A stretch of 64,000 nucleotides of DNA. It comes from Deltaproteobacteria bacterium RIFCSPHIGHO2_02_FULL_40_28 (lineage in GTDB: Bacteria; UBA10199; 2-12-FULL-40-28). Of the stretch, positions 3,539 to 35,568 are shown piece by piece. The position numbers were made by a program, and so were the translations under genes. The stretch is from NCBI GenBank assembly GCA_001798135.1, contig MGRJ01000027.1, positions 62,001 to 126,000 of the forward strand, read 5' to 3'. The stretch's first letter is position 1. The number at the start of each line of letters is the position of its first letter. The notes below the pieces were generated by a model. That model was not told where the DNA came from. It did no database searches and saw only the letters and a list, made by a program, of their open reading frames with translations.

Positions 3539-4159
3539 TTATTGAGTAATGGGCAGAATATCACATTCTATCTGGAACGTGAAACTCGCGTCCTTTCTAT
3601 CTGTATTCGATAAAGTAGGCCTTGTAATAAAGGGAGAATCGTTTAAGTGCACCAAAAATCCCGAGAGATCCGCAACTGATTTGGCTAGACCTACAAGTGT
3701 AATGCTATTTAAATCCATTTCCTTGATCACTGGTGGCTCTTCTCCTTTTTTGGATTTAGATGTTTTTTCGTTTTTATCTTTTGTTTCTTGTTTTTTCTTT
3801 TCTTGTTTTTTGATTTGTGTTTTAAAATTTGTAAGCCATACTGTAGAAGGTAATTTGTTAGTTACATCACTCAAAAGACTAGCCCAAGGAGGATTTTGAG
3901 TAAATATTTGAATGAGTTCTTCCAGTGGGCCACCAGCTACTTTCTGAGGAGCTAATCTCAAAAGTGTTTCTTTTTCTTTTTTAAGAGTAATCACTTGTGA
4001 TTCTAAATGTGTAATTTTTTTGTTGTTAAAATACATCTTGGTGAGTTGAAACGCAAAAAGATAAACACAAAGCACAACCAAACCAGCACCAATTTTAACA
4101 ATCTTTTGGTAGCTAAATTTAAAAGGCTCTTTCTCAATTAAATTAATGCGTTCAATCAT
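3539..4159 (-). CDS. pilN: PilN-like inner-membrane pilus assembly protein
   Basis: The protein begins MIERINLIEKE, matching the conserved PilN N-terminus (hydrophobic INLL-type motif that docks in PilM), which places the start at 4159, one base after the pilM stop. One membrane helix (~18-40) is followed by a coiled coil (TLKKEKETLL) and a periplasmic Fimbrial-assembly-type domain (LIQIFTQNPPWASLLSDVTNKL, VWLTNFK). An unusual Lys/Glu-rich insert of about 25 residues (KKQEKKKQETKDKNEK) interrupts this domain. It likely forms the PilM-PilN-PilO platform with its neighbours. Confidence 0.85.
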   Translation of the reverse strand: MIERINLIEKEPFKFSYQKIVKIGAGLVVLCVYLFAFQLTKMYFNNKKITHLESQVITLKKEKETLLRLAPQKVAGGPLEELIQIFTQNPPWASLLSDVTNKLPSTVWLTNFKTQIKKQEKKKQETKDKNEKTSKSKKGEEPPVIKEMDLNSITLVGLAKSVADLSGFLVHLNDSPFITRPTLSNTDRKDASFTFQIECDILPITQ

Positions 4160-26094: not shown

Positions 26095-26148
26095 GTAATT
26101 AAAAATCTCTCCCAATCACTGTTTTACGGCCAGAGGCTCTGGCTTTAT
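26095..26148. repeat. Left 54-bp direct repeat, a copy of the histone-like gene's 3' end
   Basis: Matches 27310-27363 at 52 of 54 positions. On the minus strand it encodes KARASGRKTVIGRDF and a stop, the same C-terminus as the zinc-finger/histone-fold gene (which has M for I). Upstream (26149-26215) the similarity ends. It is either a target duplication made when the Fic module inserted or the remnant of a second histone-like gene. Confidence 0.85.
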
Positions 26149-26215: not shown

Positions 26216-27277
26216 ATGAAGACGCTCGAACAATTGCTATCTGACTTTGAAAATGTGCCGACAACAATATCCTGGTATCTTGCTGATCTTGGTGAGGCAA
26301 AAGGCAAGCAGGATCTTTTTACCAAGCAATCTCCTCAAAAATTAAAAACCTTACGTGAGCATGCTTTGATCGAAAGTGCTGTGTCCTCAAACCGTATTGA
26401 AGGCGTTGAAGTTAACCAAGCCCGTATTGGTACCGTGGTATTTGGAAAAGCTTTCCTGCGTGATCGCAATGAGGAGGAAGTGCGTGGTTATCGCAAAACC
26501 TTAGATTGGATTCATCAAAAGGGAGTCAAATTGCCTGTGTCTGAAAAAACCGTTCTCCAATTTCATAAGCTAACACGCGGGGAAATATGGGATGCAGGAA
26601 AATACAAGGAAAAGGATGGGGACATCATCGAAAAATACCCAGATGGTCGTGAACGAGTTCGTTTTAAAACGGTCAAGGCTTCTAATACATCTCGTTATAT
26701 GAAAGCATTAATTCTGAAATGGAATGATTGCATCAAACAACGGGAAGTCCATCCTTTGATTGTTTTAGCAGCTTTCAGCCTGGATTTTCTCTGCATTCAC
26801 CCCTTTCGTGATGGTAACGGCAGGGTATCTAGGCTCTTGTTGCTATTACAGTGTTACCATTTGGGCTATGAAGTAGGTCACTTTATCAGTTTGGAACGGA
26901 TTATCGAAGAAAACAAAAATCGTTATTACGAAACCTTGGAACAATCTTCCCGGCATTGGCACGAGGGGAAACATGATCCCTGGCCCTACATTGGCTATGT
27001 TTTGTACATTCTCAAAACTGCTTATCGAGAATTTGAAGAACGGATGGGAGATCTTAAAAACCCTCGTGGTGAAAAAACTGCTTTGGTTGTTCGAGCCATT
27101 CGACAATCTTCCGAAACGTTTCGTATTGCTGATATTCAACGTAAATGCCCTAGCATTAGCGTGGATATGATTCGGAAGGTACTTAAAGACTTAAGGGCCG
27201 AAGGCCGAACGAAATGTCTCGGACGGGGAAAAACTGCCCAGTGGAAACGTGTAGGGAAATGGCGGAATTTGAATTAG
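26216..27277 (+). CDS. Fic family AMP-transferase-like protein
   Basis: 353 residues. The Fic core HPFRDGNGR (195-203) has the catalytic His and the anion-binding GNGR. An N-terminal Fic_N region carries the autoinhibitory motif SNRIEG (58-63, pattern S/TxxxEG), placing it with class II Fic proteins. A C-terminal winged-helix segment (FRIADIQRKCPSISVDMIRKVLKDL) is typical of the Fic-HTH group. It would AMPylate a protein target, held in check by the inhibitory Glu62. It stands alone between 54-bp direct repeats that copy the end of the neighbouring gene. Confidence 0.93.
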   Translation: MKTLEQLLSDFENVPTTISWYLADLGEAKGKQDLFTKQSPQKLKTLREHALIESAVSSNRIEGVEVNQARIGTVVFGKAFLRDRNEEEVRGYRKTLDWIHQKGVKLPVSEKTVLQFHKLTRGEIWDAGKYKEKDGDIIEKYPDGRERVRFKTVKASNTSRYMKALILKWNDCIKQREVHPLIVLAAFSLDFLCIHPFRDGNGRVSRLLLLLQCYHLGYEVGHFISLERIIEENKNRYYETLEQSSRHWHEGKHDPWPYIGYVLYILKTAYREFEERMGDLKNPRGEKTALVVRAIRQSSETFRIADIQRKCPSISVDMIRKVLKDLRAEGRTKCLGRGKTAQWKRVGKWRNLN

Positions 27278-27309: not shown

Positions 27310-27363
27310 GTAATTAAAAATCTCTTCCCATCACTGTTTTACGGCCAGAGGCTCTGGCTTTAT
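27310..27363. repeat. Right 54-bp direct repeat at the 3' end of the histone-like gene
   Basis: 52/54 identical to 26095-26148. It covers the last 15 codons and stop of the minus-strand histone-like gene plus four bases beyond. Together the copies bracket the 1.16-kb Fic module. Near the inner edges ATTACCCAT (around 26170) and ATGGGTAAT (27305-27313) are inverted, a possible weak terminal repeat. Confidence 0.85.
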
Positions 27364-27769
27364 CGATGGCCTTAAGGCATTCTTTCACCACAATTTCGGT
27401 TAGGGCATCTACGGCGCATTGACTGGTGTTATAACCCGAGCGGTCTTGGATGATTTTTTTAACTTTAGAAACCACTACCAAAGTATCTACTTCAGGAAGG
27501 GAAAAGGTGGTTGATTGGTTGGATCGAATTACGATTTTTTTTGCAGCGGGAATACTTGCTCCTGCATGGGAGGGCGCTGTTTTTTCAATGGCGGAGGATT
27601 CTCGATGATTGGCAAAGCCTAAGTGCGCATCCCAACAGGCTACGCAGCAAAAAGCCAAACCTGTTTTTTTGGTATTGCAGGTGGATACTGAACAAGTTTG
27701 GTACTTCCCCCCAAACACAATGGGCTTTTTACAGCTGGCACATTTTTTCCAAAATAATTCTTCGGACAT
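27314..27769 (-). CDS. Zinc-finger protein with C-terminal bacterial-histone-like fold
   Basis: 151 residues in two parts. Residues 8-58 hold a Cys/His cluster (CASC, then C26, C31, CCVAC, H49, H55) that would bind one or two zinc ions, in the style of ZZ-type or similar fingers. After a linker, residues 96-151 read VVVSKVKKIIQD, CAVDALTEIVVKECLKAIDKA and SGRKTVMGRDF. This fits the histone fold: helix 1, long helix 2, then the GRKTV-x3-D loop that contacts DNA in archaeal histones. The protein ends at the start of helix 3, as I recall for short bacterial histones of Bdellovibrio. Probably a nucleoid-associated protein or DNA-binding adaptor; the histone assignment is inference from the motif order. 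Confidence 0.7.
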   Translation of the reverse strand: MSEELFWKKCASCKKPIVFGGKYQTCSVSTCNTKKTGLAFCCVACWDAHLGFANHRESSAIEKTAPSHAGASIPAAKKIVIRSNQSTTFSLPEVDTLVVVSKVKKIIQDRSGYNTSQCAVDALTEIVVKECLKAIDKARASGRKTVMGRDF

Positions 27770-27857: not shown

Positions 27858-28715
27858 TCAACATAGGGATCTCCAATCTTTCTTTTCATTGGCCATTCTT
27901 ATGATGTTGCCTATTTTTTCAAGGTCTTTTGAAAGATTTGCGAAATCTGGCTTCGGATTACAACTTATAATCATAAGGAATGCTTTATTTACATTTAACC
28001 ATCTTTCTTTTTTAGGCTTCGTTTTTTCGCTGTTGTCAAAATCACCATAAAAAATTGATACAAGTGCATGAAACAAGCAGGCAAGATTAAACATTATGAT
28101 ATTCACACACATTGGCATTCCGAAGTTTTTATCAGATTGGTATAAAAGTCTTACAATTTGGTTTGGATCACTTTGTCTAGAGATGATTTCTGATAAAACC
28201 CGATGTTTTTTAGAATGGTGAATCGCACTCATTATACGGTATAGAAAATCCCATTTTAATTTAAGGATGTCATTTGGGAAATTGGAAACGTTAAAGGTAA
28301 CTTTGCCTTTTTCAGGCTTTATAAAAACTGATTCATGATCGTTTGGGAAGCAAGAGATAAAGACGATTCTCAAGAAAGTTTCATAGATGCTTCTATTTAA
28401 CATCATTGACTCGTCATAATAACCATCATTTAGATCTTCGAATGCCCTATGTAAGGTTTTCATTGTTTCGGGAAACATTAGGTATTGAATTTTTTTTGTA
28501 TAAGGCCAGTCGTCCTTGGGAACATAGTTCAACAGGACAACAAGTTCATTCATATCGTTAAAAAAAACTTCAAACTGCTTAATAAAATTTTCGAACTCTT
28601 TATGAAAAAACAATTTGTGCTCTTGAACGTATTTATAAATATCAAGGCTTGTTTCTGAGGGGTCAGCCCACAGAAGGCTTTCAACAAATTCTTTGGTTTC
28701 TTTTTCCTTACTCAT
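27858..28715 (-). CDS. Hypothetical helical protein
   Basis: 285 residues, no recognised family. The composition is alpha-helical, with aromatic-rich stretches (KLFFHKEFENFIKQFEVFF) and a central RSIYETFLRIVFI segment that weakly recalls DUF5677-type proteins. One hydrophobic stretch (NIIMFNLACLFHALVSIFYG) could be a membrane or core helix. It lies alone among accessory modules. Codon use appears as AT-rich as that of its neighbours. Function unknown. Confidence 0.6.
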   Translation of the reverse strand: MSKEKETKEFVESLLWADPSETSLDIYKYVQEHKLFFHKEFENFIKQFEVFFNDMNELVVLLNYVPKDDWPYTKKIQYLMFPETMKTLHRAFEDLNDGYYDESMMLNRSIYETFLRIVFISCFPNDHESVFIKPEKGKVTFNVSNFPNDILKLKWDFLYRIMSAIHHSKKHRVLSEIISRQSDPNQIVRLLYQSDKNFGMPMCVNIIMFNLACLFHALVSIFYGDFDNSEKTKPKKERWLNVNKAFLMIISCNPKPDFANLSKDLEKIGNIIRMANEKKDWRSLC

Positions 28716-28764
28716 AAAATGAGATGTGCTTACTGGGTTAAAAATGGCCCTTTGATGTCACTCA

Positions 28765-28799
28765 CACTCCCAAACCCCTTCAAAATAATCAATCCAAAA
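28765..28799. repeat. 35-bp dispersed repeat, copy 1
   Basis: 32 of 35 bases match 31848-31882. The second copy covers the last codons and 3' flank of a GIY-YIG nuclease gene. Here no nuclease gene is attached, so this may be the trace of a lost one. The whole 28716-29043 spacer contains no convincing gene; it holds this repeat, the 50-bp repeat at 28818 and the terminator at 29007. Confidence 0.7.
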
Positions 28800-28817
28800 T
28801 AATCTTCTCTGGAATAG

Positions 28818-28867
28818 TAGAAAAAATAGGATAGACAAGTGAACGGCCTTAACTGTAGGCGTCGATT
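28818..28867. repeat. 50-bp perfect direct repeat, left copy (NYN module)
   Basis: Identical over 50 bases to 29712-29761. The pair encloses the NYN nuclease gene and its leader, spacing 894 bp. Core reads AAGTGAACGGCCTTAACTGT. No transposase or integrase is inside. Confidence 0.92.
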
Positions 28868-29006
28868 TGTGAACCGTTTTGTGCAATTTAAAGATGAGTT
28901 AAAACGCATGGTTGGGCAACTAGAAATCAACTGGAAAATGGCCTTGAATTTATCAATGATATCCTTTATAACTAATATATCTACTCCCCGTTGGACCAGC
29001 CCTCAC

Positions 29007-29032
29007 AGGCCTCCTTCGGGGTTTTGTTTTTT
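29007..29032 (+). terminator. Possible rho-independent terminator before the NYN gene
   Basis: CCTC-CTTC-GGGG stem extended by G-T and A-T pairs and followed by TTTTGTTTTTT. It ends 11 bases before the NYN start codon. It could stop incoming transcription or attenuate the gene. Confidence 0.5.
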
Positions 29033-29043
29033 AGGGGGTGGAA

Positions 29044-29685
29044 ATGCCTGCTGAACCGACTATCAAACGGGCTATAGCTTTTATCGACGGCCAGAATCTT
29101 TTCTATGCTGTTAAAAAAGCTTATGGGTATAAATTTCCTAATTACGATCCGAAGTTATTATCTAAAAAAATTTGTGACTCTCATGGTTGGAAATTGGAAG
29201 GTGTTCATTTCTATACCGGTGTTCCTCAATCTACTGATGATTCATTTTGGCATTATTTCTGGACAAAAAAACTTGCGATCATGGGTACCCGTAAGGTGCA
29301 GACTTTTTCCAGACCTCTGCGTTACCGCCATCAAACCGTAACTCTTCCCAATGGAAATTCAACTTCTATCCTTGTTGGTCAAGAAAAAGGAGTCGATATT
29401 CGGATTGCCCTTGATGTGGTGAGATTAGCTTTGGATATCAAGTATGATATCGCCTTAATTTTTAGCCAAGATCAGGATCTTTCCGAAGTTGCCGATGAGG
29501 TAAGAAAAATATCCATCCTTCAAGACCGGTGGATTAAAGTTTGTTGTGCCTTCCCGATAAGTCCTGCCTATGACAATAAGCGCGGAATCAATAATACTGA
29601 TTGGATTAAGATTGATCGTAAAACTTATGATGCTTGCCTAGATCCCATGGATTATCGACCTAAACCTAAAGCAGATAAAAAATAA
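29044..29685 (+). CDS. NYN-domain (LabA/PIN-like) nuclease
   Basis: 213 residues from ATG 29044, with AGGGGGTG as ribosome site. The N-terminus RAIAFIDGQNLFYAVKKAYG holds the first catalytic Asp. GVDIRIALDVVRLAL and IALIFSQDQDLSEVADEV supply the further Asp cluster of NYN/LabA-type PIN nucleases. These are probable metal-dependent RNases, sometimes linked to defence. The gene forms a single-gene module between perfect 50-bp repeats. Confidence 0.88.
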   Translation: MPAEPTIKRAIAFIDGQNLFYAVKKAYGYKFPNYDPKLLSKKICDSHGWKLEGVHFYTGVPQSTDDSFWHYFWTKKLAIMGTRKVQTFSRPLRYRHQTVTLPNGNSTSILVGQEKGVDIRIALDVVRLALDIKYDIALIFSQDQDLSEVADEVRKISILQDRWIKVCCAFPISPAYDNKRGINNTDWIKIDRKTYDACLDPMDYRPKPKADKK

Positions 29686-29711
29686 CCCCCCTTGGTGCCA
29701 GATACTTTTTT

Positions 29712-29761
29712 TAGAAAAAATAGGATAGACAAGTGAACGGCCTTAACTGTAGGCGTCGATT
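29712..29761. repeat. 50-bp perfect direct repeat, right copy (NYN module)
   Basis: Second copy of the 28818-28867 repeat. Just upstream lies GTGCCAGATACTTTTTTT, similar to GTGCCAGATATTTTTATT at 32155. After it the hipT promoter region begins. Confidence 0.92.
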
Positions 29762-29823
29762 ATGATTTAAATAGCTGTATTTTATAGGTAAAATATAAGT
29801 ATATATTTATATATAAAAATAAT

Positions 29824-29868
29824 AAGTATAAGTTTATACTTGATAATTATTAGTATATATGTATACTA
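29824..29868 (+). promoter_or_regulatory. Paired palindromic operators before the HipT-like gene
   Basis: AAGTATAA-GT-TTATACTT (29824-29841) and TAGTATA-TATG-TATACTA (29851-29868) share the same arms and start 27 bp apart. A third, degraded TATATA-rich copy may lie near 29800. The second palindrome ends six bases before the start codon, where no Shine-Dalgarno exists. This is what is expected for binding of the HTH antitoxin encoded downstream. Confidence 0.7.
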
Positions 29869-29874
29869 AAAAAC

Positions 29875-30813
29875 ATGGGAAGAAAGTATTGTCTCAGATG
29901 TAACCAAGTCATTGCGGCAGGTCAGGCGCATTATGGGCAGCATATTTACTGCTTTAAAGAAATATTTTTAGTTTCTGAGGTTTTAGAATTTCATTCCTTA
30001 GCTAGGAAGGAATCAAGCAGTAACAAAGAACAGAAAAGCTTGTTGCCGCATCTTACTTCTTATTTTGCCGGTAACTATAAAAAGTATGAAGGGAAGTTAG
30101 GAGACTTAAGCTACATTTTAAAATTTTCAAAGTCTGAGTATCCAGAATTGGCACCGGTGGAATATGTTTGCAATAAAATTGCTTACTATTGTGGCATCCC
30201 TACCCCAAAACCTTTTACTCTTATCGAGATGGCGGATGATGAACTGGCGTTCGTTTCAAAAAACTTCATGCACACCATGAAAACTCATTCTACCTTAGTG
30301 CATATCTATCGATATTTGGAAGGGGGCGCAGAAAATTACAATGTTGAAACAATAAGTAACACTATTTTCCGAGAAACCAAGGCGTCTCAGGATGTGACAA
30401 ATTTTTTTAAAGTTCTTTTGTTTGATTCGTTAATAGGAAACCACGATAGGCATGGAAGTAATTTGGCACTTTTTGAAACAGCAAAAGAAAAACAATTAGC
30501 TCCTATTTATGACAACCCCTCATATCTTGGATTAGAATCAGGCGGGATGCTCAAGGCGGATTTTTCGCCAAAAGGCAAAATATGGACGAAAGATTCCAAA
30601 GAACCAGGGATGACAGAATATTTAGAGGAAATAAGCCGGTTGGGTGTGTTTGAAATGGCGGAGGATTTTTTTAATAAACTTCCAATTGAAAGGATTCGAT
30701 CAACAATTAGTGAAGCTGTTTGCCTTTCAGATCCGATGAAAAATGTTCTGCTTAAACTTATTGATAAGAGATACCTGGAACTTAAAAAATATGTCGAAAA
30801 TAGAAGAAATTAA
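29875..30813 (+). CDS. HipT-like Ser/Thr kinase (HipA C-terminal kinase core)
   Basis: 312 residues. N-terminal zinc-ribbon-like CLRC...HIYC (6-26), then a HipA-type kinase: glycine loop region KLGDLSYILK (74-83) with Lys83, NHDRHGSN catalytic loop (189-196) and IYDN metal site (Asp213). The HipA N-terminal subdomain is absent here and occurs instead in the next gene. HipA/HipT kinases phosphorylate aminoacyl-tRNA synthetases (GltX, TrpS) to arrest growth; the target here is unknown. Gene order is toxin first. No ribosome site is visible, so translation may be weak or leaderless. Confidence 0.88.
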   Translation: MGRKYCLRCNQVIAAGQAHYGQHIYCFKEIFLVSEVLEFHSLARKESSSNKEQKSLLPHLTSYFAGNYKKYEGKLGDLSYILKFSKSEYPELAPVEYVCNKIAYYCGIPTPKPFTLIEMADDELAFVSKNFMHTMKTHSTLVHIYRYLEGGAENYNVETISNTIFRETKASQDVTNFFKVLLFDSLIGNHDRHGSNLALFETAKEKQLAPIYDNPSYLGLESGGMLKADFSPKGKIWTKDSKEPGMTEYLEEISRLGVFEMAEDFFNKLPIERIRSTISEAVCLSDPMKNVLLKLIDKRYLELKKYVENRRN

Positions 30814-31405
30814 TATCTATAGCCAAACAAAAACAAAGCGCATCTTTGTCGGAAAGCTATGGAGAGAAGGTAAAAAATATTTCTTTGAGTATGCCAATAC
30901 TTATAAGAAATTAAGAAGTGCCTTGTCTCTTGGCCCTGAGCTTCCTTTGTGGAAAGGTAGGGCTTCTTCAAGCGCCTTATTCCCAGCTTTTTCAGACCGC
31001 ATCCCATCCAAAAAAAATCCTGCCTACAAGGATTATTGTCGCGAATGGGGGATTGGCGAAAATGAGAAGGATGTTTTTGTTTTGCTAACAACTATCGGGC
31101 GCAGAGGTCCTTCGACCTTTGTTTTTGAGCCAGCTATTAAAAACGAATATACAGCTTCACAACTGAAAGATTTTAGAAATCGATTAGGACTTACTCAATC
31201 TGAATTTGAAGTGTTCTTTAATATATCTCATATGACTTTGTTTCGTTTGGAAGCGGGTAAGTCCAAGAGTGACTTCTATTTGCGGTATTTTGAACTATTC
31301 GACAAAGTGCCTCAGGCTTTAGCTTGGATGTTGGAAAAAAGAGGGCAATTACTGCATGATGAAAAAAGAATTCGTCTGCTAAGCCAAAAGAAGCTGATAT
31401 GTTAG
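30791..31405 (+). CDS. HipS-HTH fusion, probable antitoxin of the kinase
   Basis: 204 residues from ATG 30791, overlapping the kinase by 23 bp. Residues ~20-85 (GKLWREGKKYFFEYANTYKK, LFPAFSDRIPS) resemble the N-terminal subdomain of HipA, known as the separate HipS protein in three-part HipBST systems. Residues ~135-180 (LKDFRNRLGLTQSEFEVFF, HMTLFRLEAGKS) form an XRE-type helix-turn-helix, like HipB. HipB and HipS roles therefore appear combined in one protein: kinase neutralisation and operator binding to the palindromes at 29824-29868. The fusion is direct from sequence; the roles are inference. Confidence 0.75.
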   Translation: MSKIEEINIYSQTKTKRIFVGKLWREGKKYFFEYANTYKKLRSALSLGPELPLWKGRASSSALFPAFSDRIPSKKNPAYKDYCREWGIGENEKDVFVLLTTIGRRGPSTFVFEPAIKNEYTASQLKDFRNRLGLTQSEFEVFFNISHMTLFRLEAGKSKSDFYLRYFELFDKVPQALAWMLEKRGQLLHDEKRIRLLSQKKLIC

Positions 31406-31623
31406 CCGCTATTCATGAGGCTTTATTGCATCCCGAGTTTGTAGTACAATCAAATAGTGATGAGAAGGCACATTTGTATTATCGGTATTATTCAAAAACC
31501 ATGGTTGGGGGAAAATATTTGTGCGTCATTGTTAAGGTAGAGAAAAAAGAAGCTTTTATTTTAACAGCCTATTTGACTGACAAAGTTAAGAAAGGAAAAA
31601 TATTATGGGAAGCAAAACAATAA
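31399..31623 (+). pseudogene. N-terminally truncated copy of the nuclease-like toxin candidate at 35254
   Basis: 74 codons closely related to the last 74 residues of the 104-residue protein encoded at 35254-35568 (shared ALLHPEFVVQS, YYRYYSKTMVGGKYLCVIVK, LTAYLTDKVKKGKILW). The first 30 residues, with the RLAHILEHPEM segment, are missing, and homology starts right at the end of the HipS-HTH gene. I class it as a truncated, probably inactive copy, though its frame is open and it is still followed by the intact DUF2283 gene. Confidence 0.7.
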
Positions 31624-31817
31624 AAGTTTGGTTTGATCCTGAAGGCGATTTTTTAGAGGTCATTTTTGAAAACAAACCCGGTTTTTTCAAAGAAACTGAT
31701 AATGATCTCGTCATGGAAAAAGTGGATGAGGATGGAAATATTCTTGGTTTTTCAGTTCAGCAAATCAGCTCCATCAAGAAAAAACCCTTAGAAGCAATTT
31801 TGCAAGTTATAGGCTGA
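31605..31817 (+). CDS. DUF2283 protein, copy 1
   Basis: 70 residues of the DUF2283 family (KVWFDPEGDFLEVIFEN, DNDLVMEKVDEDGNILGFSV). It differs from the copy at 35060 in only 6 of 70 residues. It overlaps the truncated nuclease-like gene by 19 bp, as in the complete copy. DUF2283 proteins commonly accompany small toxin-like proteins and are plausible antitoxins. Kept while its partner is truncated, it could act in trans against the intact partner at 35254. Confidence 0.85.
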   Translation: MGSKTIKVWFDPEGDFLEVIFENKPGFFKETDNDLVMEKVDEDGNILGFSVQQISSIKKKPLEAILQVIG

Positions 31818-31847
31818 AAGGCATAAGTTAGTCTTGGTCCCAGGCAA

Positions 31848-31882
31848 CACTTCCAAACTCTTTCAAAATAATCAATCCAAAA
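31848..31882. repeat. 35-bp dispersed repeat, copy 2
   Basis: 32/35 match to 28765-28799. It covers the final codons and 3' flank of the GIY-YIG gene. Confidence 0.7.
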
Positions 31883-32123
31883 CACCTTTAACCAACCCCT
31901 CTTTTTCCTTCCTCGACAGTTTTTTAATTTGAGTTTCGCGTTTTAAAGCTTGGAATTTGTCTGGAAAAATTTCGTGATAAAGAATTTTTTTGGCGCCAAA
32001 TGATTTTGTAAATTTTCCACCAGATCCGGATTGATGTTGCTTAAAGCGTCTCTCCAAATCTGTGGTGTAACCCGTATAAAAACGCCCGTCTTTAGTTTGA
32101 AGAATATAAACAAAAAAGTTCAT
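31872..32123 (-). CDS. GIY-YIG nuclease-superfamily small protein (YhbQ/UPF0213-like)
   Basis: 83 residues: FFVYILQTKDGRFYTGYTTDLERRFKQH gives the GIY-YIG-type strand pair (VYI, YTG) with the helix Arg, followed by GGKFTKSFGAKKILYHEIF. These stand-alone GIY-YIG proteins are widespread, and the nuclease activity of many is unproven. It ends inside a 35-bp repeat also seen at 28765. The 218-bp region upstream to 32342 is extremely AT-rich and holds only promoter-like sequence. Confidence 0.9.
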   Translation of the reverse strand: MNFFVYILQTKDGRFYTGYTTDLERRFKQHQSGSGGKFTKSFGAKKILYHEIFPDKFQALKRETQIKKLSRKEKEGLVKGVLD

Positions 32124-35059: not shown

Positions 35060-35272
35060 TCAACCAGCGACTTGTAAAAGTGCTTCTAAAGGTTTTTTCT
35101 TGATAGAACTAATTTGCTGAACGGAAAAACCTAAAATGTTCCCATCCTTATCCACTTTCTCCATGACGAGGTCATTGTCCGTTTCTTTGAAAAACCCCGG
35201 CTTGTTTTCAAAAATGACCTCTAAAAAATCACCTTCGGCATCAAACCAAACTTTTATTGCTTTGCTTTCCAT
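35060..35272 (-). CDS. DUF2283 protein, copy 2
   Basis: 70 residues, 64 identical to the copy at 31605. Overlaps its upstream partner by 19 bp, the last gene of a six-gene minus-strand cluster. The conserved core KVWFDAEGDFLEVIFEN and NILGFSVQQIS identify DUF2283. Likely the antitoxin or partner of the preceding nuclease-like protein, by inference from the fixed pairing. Confidence 0.87.
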   Translation of the reverse strand: MESKAIKVWFDAEGDFLEVIFENKPGFFKETDNDLVMEKVDKDGNILGFSVQQISSIKKKPLEALLQVAG

Positions 35273-35568
35273 AATATTTTTCCTTTCTTAACCTTGTCGG
35301 TTAAATAAGCTGTCAACACAAACGCGTCGTCATTCCGAATCTTGACGATGACGCAGAGATATTTCCCCCCAACCATAGTTTTCGAATAATAGCGGTAATA
35401 CAAATTTGCCGTTTCATCACTCTTTGATTGTACAACAAATTCGGGGTGTAATAAAGCTTCTTGAATTGCGGCTGCCATCTCATGCATTTCTGGATGTTCC
35501 AAAATATGAGCCAGCCGCTCATCGGTTAGTCGCACAGAAATACCCTTGTAATCTTTAAGATATTTCAA
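35254..35568 (-). CDS. Small nuclease-like protein, probable toxin partner of DUF2283
   Basis: 104 residues. The layout SVRLTDERLAHILEHPEM, ALLHPEFVVQS, YYRYYSK, YLCVIVK and FVLTAYLTDKVKKGKILW resembles the barnase/EndoU/ColicinE5-D/RelE-like (PBECR) or DUF4258-type folds of small RNases. The His in HILEHPEM and the terminal Tyr/Thr/Lys cluster would be active-site candidates. Overlaps both neighbours (4 bp with 35565 gene, 19 bp with DUF2283). A truncated second copy is at 31399. Family assignment is tentative. Confidence 0.65.
   Translation of the reverse strand: MKYLKDYKGISVRLTDERLAHILEHPEMHEMAAAIQEALLHPEFVVQSKSDETANLYYRYYSKTMVGGKYLCVIVKIRNDDAFVLTAYLTDKVKKGKILWKAKQ

Follow-up and report, generated by a model that had tools for sequence, protein, structure and literature searches.

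A probable insertion of a promoter, leader hairpin and NYN ribonuclease gene between direct repeats in a deltaproteobacterial genome

The NYN gene and its surroundings

The window analysed here is a stretch of 64,000 nt from Deltaproteobacteria bacterium RIFCSPHIGHO2_02_FULL_40_28 (GCA_001798135.1, MGRJ01000027.1, positions 62,001-126,000 of the forward strand), and all coordinates below are those of the window unless a locus label precedes them. It contains a gene for an NYN-domain protein lying between two copies of a 50-bp direct repeat (Table 1). An earlier note on this DNA had described the two copies as identical, with a single NYN nuclease gene and no recombinase between them, and this description is borne out. 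The copies are equal at 50/50 bases and stand 894 bp apart; a 29-base portion of the repeat matches the window twice, compared with no match in 100 dinucleotide shuffles. The only gene they enclose matches Pfam PF01936 with 39.6 bits (curated cut-off 24.2; E 9e-10).

Table 1. Features of the NYN locus and of the neighbouring Fic and HipA-like genes
Feature	Position	Strand	Remarks
54-bp direct repeat, upstream copy	26095-26148	+	before Fic gene
Fic-domain gene	26216-27277	+	PADLOC SoFic, E 1e-31
54-bp direct repeat, downstream copy	27310-27363	+	96%; last 50 nt of gene 27314-27769 (-) plus 4 nt
36-bp direct repeat (outer pair), upstream copy	28764-28799	+	pair encloses NYN gene and HipA/HipB-like module
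50-bp direct repeat, upstream copy	28818-28867	+	sequence comparison
sigma70-like promoter	28944-28972	+	TTGAAT 28944-28949, 17-nt spacer, TATAAC 28967-28972
Conserved leader RNA, predicted terminator-like attenuator	28979-29032	+	5' ATCTACT, hairpin 28986-29021, T-rich tract to 29032
NYN-domain ribonuclease (predicted), 213 aa	29044-29685	+	in-frame GTG also at 29038
50-bp direct repeat, downstream copy	29712-29761	+	100% identical to upstream copy
HipA C-terminal-domain kinase homologue	29875-30813	+	profile match
HipA N-terminal-domain/HTH protein, partner of HipA-like kinase	30743-31405	+	profile match
36-bp direct repeat (outer pair), downstream copy	31847-31882	+	92%; overlaps 3' end of GIY-YIG gene 31872-32123 (-)

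By its modelled structure the protein is an NYN-fold ribonuclease. The model, built from 60 sequences, has a pLDDT of 90.5, and its best match in the PDB is 2qip (E 4.5e-8), an uncharacterised Vibrio protein that we take to be an NYN protein; no solved chain matched the protein by sequence. Residues D15, N18, E114, D118 and D145 are invariant across the 60 sequences, and the conserved acidic residues of the NYN fold have a catalytic role. Less strongly (49 bits, E 1.4e-13), the protein also matches HEC-09, a defence candidate in PADLOC whose prefix HEC abbreviates "Hma-embedded candidate" (PMC12988326). The two have in common the NYN domain and fold, a sporadic occurrence and, in some cases, a position near defence genes; however, the match does not exceed 49 bits, and an RNA leader of the kind described below is not part of the description of HEC-09, as far as the accessible text of PMC12988326 goes.

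The earlier note missed two further pairs of direct repeats, both within 6 kb. The outer, 36-bp pair also takes in two small genes besides those listed in Table 1, while the 54-bp pair surrounds the Fic gene, which we take to be a neighbouring insertion of the same kind as NYN. The window is not unusual for this genome in how densely it holds such pairs: its three in 64 kb compare with 17 in 380 kb taken from elsewhere in the genome, although many of the 17 are, by eye, dispersed GC-rich palindromic repeats or repeated genes. Dispersed GC-rich palindromic repeats of the GTAGGGGC type are found on two other contigs of the same genome (L142 and L143). In the window, a 413-nt inverted repeat (31395-31807 and 35070-35482, 85%) covers the small genes that follow the HipA-like module (DUF4258/PBECR2-like and DUF2283). 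Elsewhere, at L009 (1074-2126 and 3992-4621), a Fic homologue 64% identical to that of the window lies about 1.9 kb upstream of an NYN gene, as it does here, with different genes in between.

Upstream of the HipA-like kinase gene are 27-bp AT-rich iterons (29791-29873), a probable operator. A genome of the same order, G005, has a HipA homologue identical at 71% of residues, preceded by similar iterons (L006, 1501-1554), and has no NYN gene. The nesting of the repeat pairs around NYN, together with an identity that drops outwards from 100% for the inner pair to 92% for the outer one, suggests that NYN entered after the HipA-like module. Our search for a close relative with the corresponding empty site found none, G005 being the only genome to show the HipA homologue without NYN. 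No tRNA or tmRNA attachment site was found within the window.

A conserved leader RNA in front of NYN genes

The earlier note had also credited the gene with its own terminator and ribosome site. Both are present, but the terminator-like hairpin lies 5' of the NYN start codon rather than 3' of the gene, and it must therefore be regarded as a leader of NYN and not as its 3' terminator. The hairpin is 36 nt long and consists of an outer stem, a 3-nt bulge and an inner stem. It is within this hairpin, about 60 bp before the start codon, that the similarity between the NYN gene of the window and the three others of the class begins. The same leader stands 5' of NYN in distant phyla; its pattern is ACTTGCT-CCCCG..., followed by an outer stem of 10 pairs, a bulge of 3 nt, a short inner stem and TTATTTTT.

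The alignment comprises 79 of 91 sequences. Five leaders were missed by the search pattern (L010, L026, L029, L050 and L005), although the hairpin is visible by eye in L010, L029, L050 and L005; six were left out for wrong or doubtful automatic boundaries (L028, L037, L043, L077, L080 and L093), and L008 because it is the same gene as L004. At L028, two successive hairpins of the leader type can be seen by eye before NYN. Across the 79 leaders, 8 of the 13 pairs have changed on both sides, and 98.6% of cells are paired; shuffles give 92.4%, and sliding the partners gives no more than 54.4%. The leader of the window folds with -18.6 kcal/mol (z -3.4), with two mismatched positions in its outer stem. 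With E values of up to 1 allowed, neither the window stretch nor any of eight NYN loci gave an Rfam 15 match at the leader, and in the open-access literature we recognised no paper describing a conserved leader before NYN genes.

The surroundings of the hairpin are conserved as well. A promoter-like site scoring at least 9 out of 12 (a scale that includes small bonuses) is found upstream in 54 of the 79 leaders, as against 6.6% of shuffles; these sites mostly end 13-18 nt before the hairpin, with A at -7 conserved in 96% and T at -4 in 99%. At least five T residues occur within 10 nt after the stem in all 80 leaders measured, in which the distance from stem to start codon has a median of 22 nt. 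The predicted start of transcription is about 7 nt upstream of the hairpin. Most transcripts would end at the hairpin and T-tract, and we propose that this keeps NYN low, its mRNA arising by read-through. All features of an intrinsic terminator being present, the hairpin could also be a mere insulator against upstream transcription, devoid of any regulatory role. We consider this very unlikely, since directly upstream there is a promoter-like site whose start region is conserved, and since the bulge length, the inner stem and the 5' lead are conserved across phyla.

The association between hairpin and gene was followed with a covariance model. In the window the model finds one strong match, of 52 bits, the next best reaching 14.5. 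In 46 genomes of the class, four hairpin matches, at 52-63 bits, coincide exactly with the four NYN genes, two of whose leaders (G009 and G029) were not used in building the model; the other six matches do not exceed 35.5 bits. Among 40 genomes picked, from the 80 loci, for carrying NYN, the hairpin is 5' of the gene in all 40, with 43 hairpin places for 41 NYN places. This agreement is partly by construction, because many of these leaders built the model, and the value of the count is that there is almost no hairpin without NYN. One of the two extra hairpins, in G070, is weak. The other, in G064, is the degenerate leader of locus L037. Here a type I restriction locus contains the gene of a DUF1016-type (YhcG) nuclease, in front of which stands a degenerate copy (75%; 2372-2526 and 3858-4015) comprising the terminal part of the preceding gene, the leader of NYN and its first codons; the nuclease reading frame therefore opens with NYN-like codons.

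Distribution of NYN genes and repeats at other loci

A scan of one genome per species yielded at least 184 stretches encoding NYN relatives, and the best 80 of these, which were kept, come from many phyla. Among the matches listed, NYN is scattered over about 17 phylum-level labels, and 10 relatives are on viral contigs. The distribution is patchy at close range too: the gene is found in 4 of the 46 genomes of the class, and among the relatives of an acidobacterial and of an omnitrophotal carrier it occurs in 5 of 300 and 7 of 285, respectively, the centre genome being included in each of these last two counts. A quick tree of 78 proteins requires 36 changes of phylum label, the minimum being 16. 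Most hosts are MAGs, in which binning errors could mimic transfer; NYN copies occur on contigs of up to 5.7 Mb. No NYN relative was matched in phage records, three plasmid records gave a match, and megablast found no match between the viral copy L091 and E. coli genomes. Among the carriers is a bacterium available in culture, Methylobacterium bullatum. Two close hairpin-NYN copies (L060 and L082) are on different contigs of one Rokubacteria genome. We read NYN as a ribonuclease gene that moves horizontally, brings its own predicted attenuator and is possibly a defence gene.

No partner gene recurs beside NYN: among 109 neighbours (of 143), no Pfam family recurs more than twice and no family goes beyond three members, and a few neighbours are defence genes. 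The longest upstream neighbour is co-oriented with NYN in 53 of 70 loci, and the downstream one in 38 of 73. At six viral loci (L089-L092, L094 and L095) NYN is flanked by the genes for the large terminase and the portal protein, the hairpin and gene forming an independent promoter-gene unit within an HK97-like head cluster that is possibly a gene transfer agent. Phage morons are independent promoter-gene units located between phage structural genes, and the six viral loci resemble them in this respect. Most NYN copies are, however, chromosomal, and no phage genes were seen adjoining the copy of the window.

The flanks of other NYN loci were compared by a gapped test. Of 87 loci, 13 had direct repeats and the remaining 74 had none; of 287 placements chosen at random, 3 had them (Fisher p 8e-7). 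The 87 are the 92 loci minus the window, L088 (an artefact of negative indexing), L133 (which looks like the same locus as L079), and L124 and L130 (minus-strand loci tested in the wrong orientation). An earlier ungapped scan had given 12 of 87 loci, the window included, with a score of at least 25, compared with 0.6% of 890 placements. Inverted repeats were found in the flanks of none of the 92 loci.

The repeats at other NYN loci are related neither to the 50-mer of the window nor to each other, and the spacing between repeat and hairpin, like that between stop codon and repeat, is not constant across loci. A site-specific cassette, integron-like or flanked by att sites, was considered and rejected, there being no common recombination site around the different copies. 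In 7 of the 13 loci (L013, L017, L020, L032, L049, L059 and L087) an adjacent gene supplies the repeat with its 3' end, one flank holding the intact gene and the opposite flank a fragment of it; the other six have dispersed repeats or repeats that are not gene ends. In seven coding pairs, namely six gene-end loci (L017 was left out of the counts because of a gap) and the Fic pair of the window, read by eye, the differences fall 13, 12 and 47 times at codon positions 1, 2 and 3 (p 5e-8). For L013, L020, L032, L059, L087 and the Fic pair, 43 of 59 differences are at third positions, whereas those of L049 (3, 6 and 4) have no such bias. A search for an empty site corresponding to L049 returned only distant relatives, which carry the neighbouring gene with one copy and in which the downstream flank is not conserved.

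Insertion of the unit and its possible function

The interpretation of the earlier note was that the 50-bp repeats might be the ends on which an enzyme acts in trans, moving the gene as a cassette. The perfect repeats around one gene, with no recombinase inside, are what a pair of recombination sites for an integrase or transposase encoded elsewhere would look like. The data nevertheless do not support this idea. BLAST of 28700-29900 against the whole genome returned the locus itself and one partial match of 36 bp (31847-31882); thus the 50-mer is confined to a single locus, with no further copies, in the genome-wide search that the earlier note had called for. NYN copies elsewhere have unrelated repeats, often derived from the end of a local neighbouring gene, or no repeats, at distances from hairpin and stop codon that vary, and repeats of this sort also enclose the neighbouring, unrelated Fic gene. 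We therefore hold a cassette moved in trans to be extremely unlikely. What does stand from that interpretation is the insertion of a mobile single-gene unit, in keeping with the occurrence of NYN in few genomes of the class and under many phylum-level labels. Excision between the perfect repeats, which the earlier note also envisaged, may take place by ordinary recombination.

Two routes of insertion without a dedicated enzyme can account for long repeats derived from the target. In the first, one homologous end anchors the incoming DNA and the other end is joined illegitimately. Such homology-facilitated illegitimate recombination is known in naturally competent bacteria and in E. coli conjugation (PMC3240628, in the accessible part of the text), and it could leave both the donor and the recipient copy of the anchor; its operation at NYN loci is suggested by sequence alone. 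In the second, the target of the recipient is copied at insertion, as reported for restriction-modification genes of H. pylori (Nobusato et al. 2000; PMC1643837, PMC3031569). As far as the accessible portions of these sources describe them, the H. pylori insertions resemble those of NYN in that long, variable, target-derived direct repeats flank a selfish or defence-type gene with no recombinase; they differ in that NYN is a solo RNase with an RNA leader, found in many phyla, and in that, where its flanking repeats are coding, differences between the copies are concentrated at third codon positions, as two alleles would show rather than a fresh duplication.

That differences are mostly at third positions implies that the copies first diverged as working genes, as expected for the scar of a homology-anchored insertion and not for the product of a trans-acting recombinase. 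The bias thus favours homologous anchoring and leaves target duplication as the main rival. The perfect identity of the 50-bp copies and the spread of the L049 differences over the three codon positions agree with a duplication, but the excess of third-position changes in the other coding scars would be unexpected if one copy were a functionless, decaying duplicate; we regard target duplication as a serious candidate, though an unlikely one. The repeats of the window, being identical and non-coding, are compatible with either route.

The account that we favour, and consider probable as a whole, is that 28818-29761 is the insertion scar of a self-contained, self-regulated unit of promoter, attenuator and NYN gene, brought in by homology-anchored or illegitimate recombination. 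The unit, with its hairpin RNA and endoribonuclease, would spread among distant bacteria as passenger DNA and, in one viral lineage, would be carried inside the head-gene cluster of a phage or gene transfer agent. It would settle beside genes, mostly after a co-oriented one, and its insertion, which would require no enzyme of its own, could leave long direct repeats derived from the target.

What the leader would respond to may be sought in the unit itself. Since the leader is kept in many phyla and has no partner, its regulator should be either NYN or something universal; NYN is the likeliest sensor, because nothing else travels with the unit, and it would bind or cut its own leader. Such self-binding or cleavage seems to us the simplest choice. 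A bolder one is that the hairpin is an RNA antitoxin, the short terminated transcript binding and silencing NYN, which would be a toxin or an RNase of abortive infection, much as in type III toxin-antitoxin systems. In these systems (ToxIN) the order is promoter, RNA element, terminator and RNase gene, and the NYN unit has the same order. The strict linkage of hairpin and NYN and the presence of defence genes beside some copies are consistent with this proposal. On the other hand, the window has one hairpin upstream of NYN and none of the tandem RNA repeats that characterise type III systems, and the NYN fold is not that of ToxN. We think an RNA antitoxin rather unlikely.

A more speculative possibility, to which we give still less credence, is that the hairpin RNA and the solo NYN RNase form a minimal selfish or defensive unit whose two components need only each other, the transcript being an antidote or sensor that is released, for example, when a phage or stress alters termination. 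Such a unit would be able to function in bacteria of many phyla and would be carried by transducing particles.

A leader RNA without an Rfam family, standing before an RNase that crosses phyla, offers a compact RNA-protein pair that can be tested directly. The NYN loci also amount to a large set of natural insertions of a single gene whose scars can be read, and the excess of third-position differences in these scars bears on the way in which genes lacking a recombinase, defence and toxin genes among them, come into genomes.
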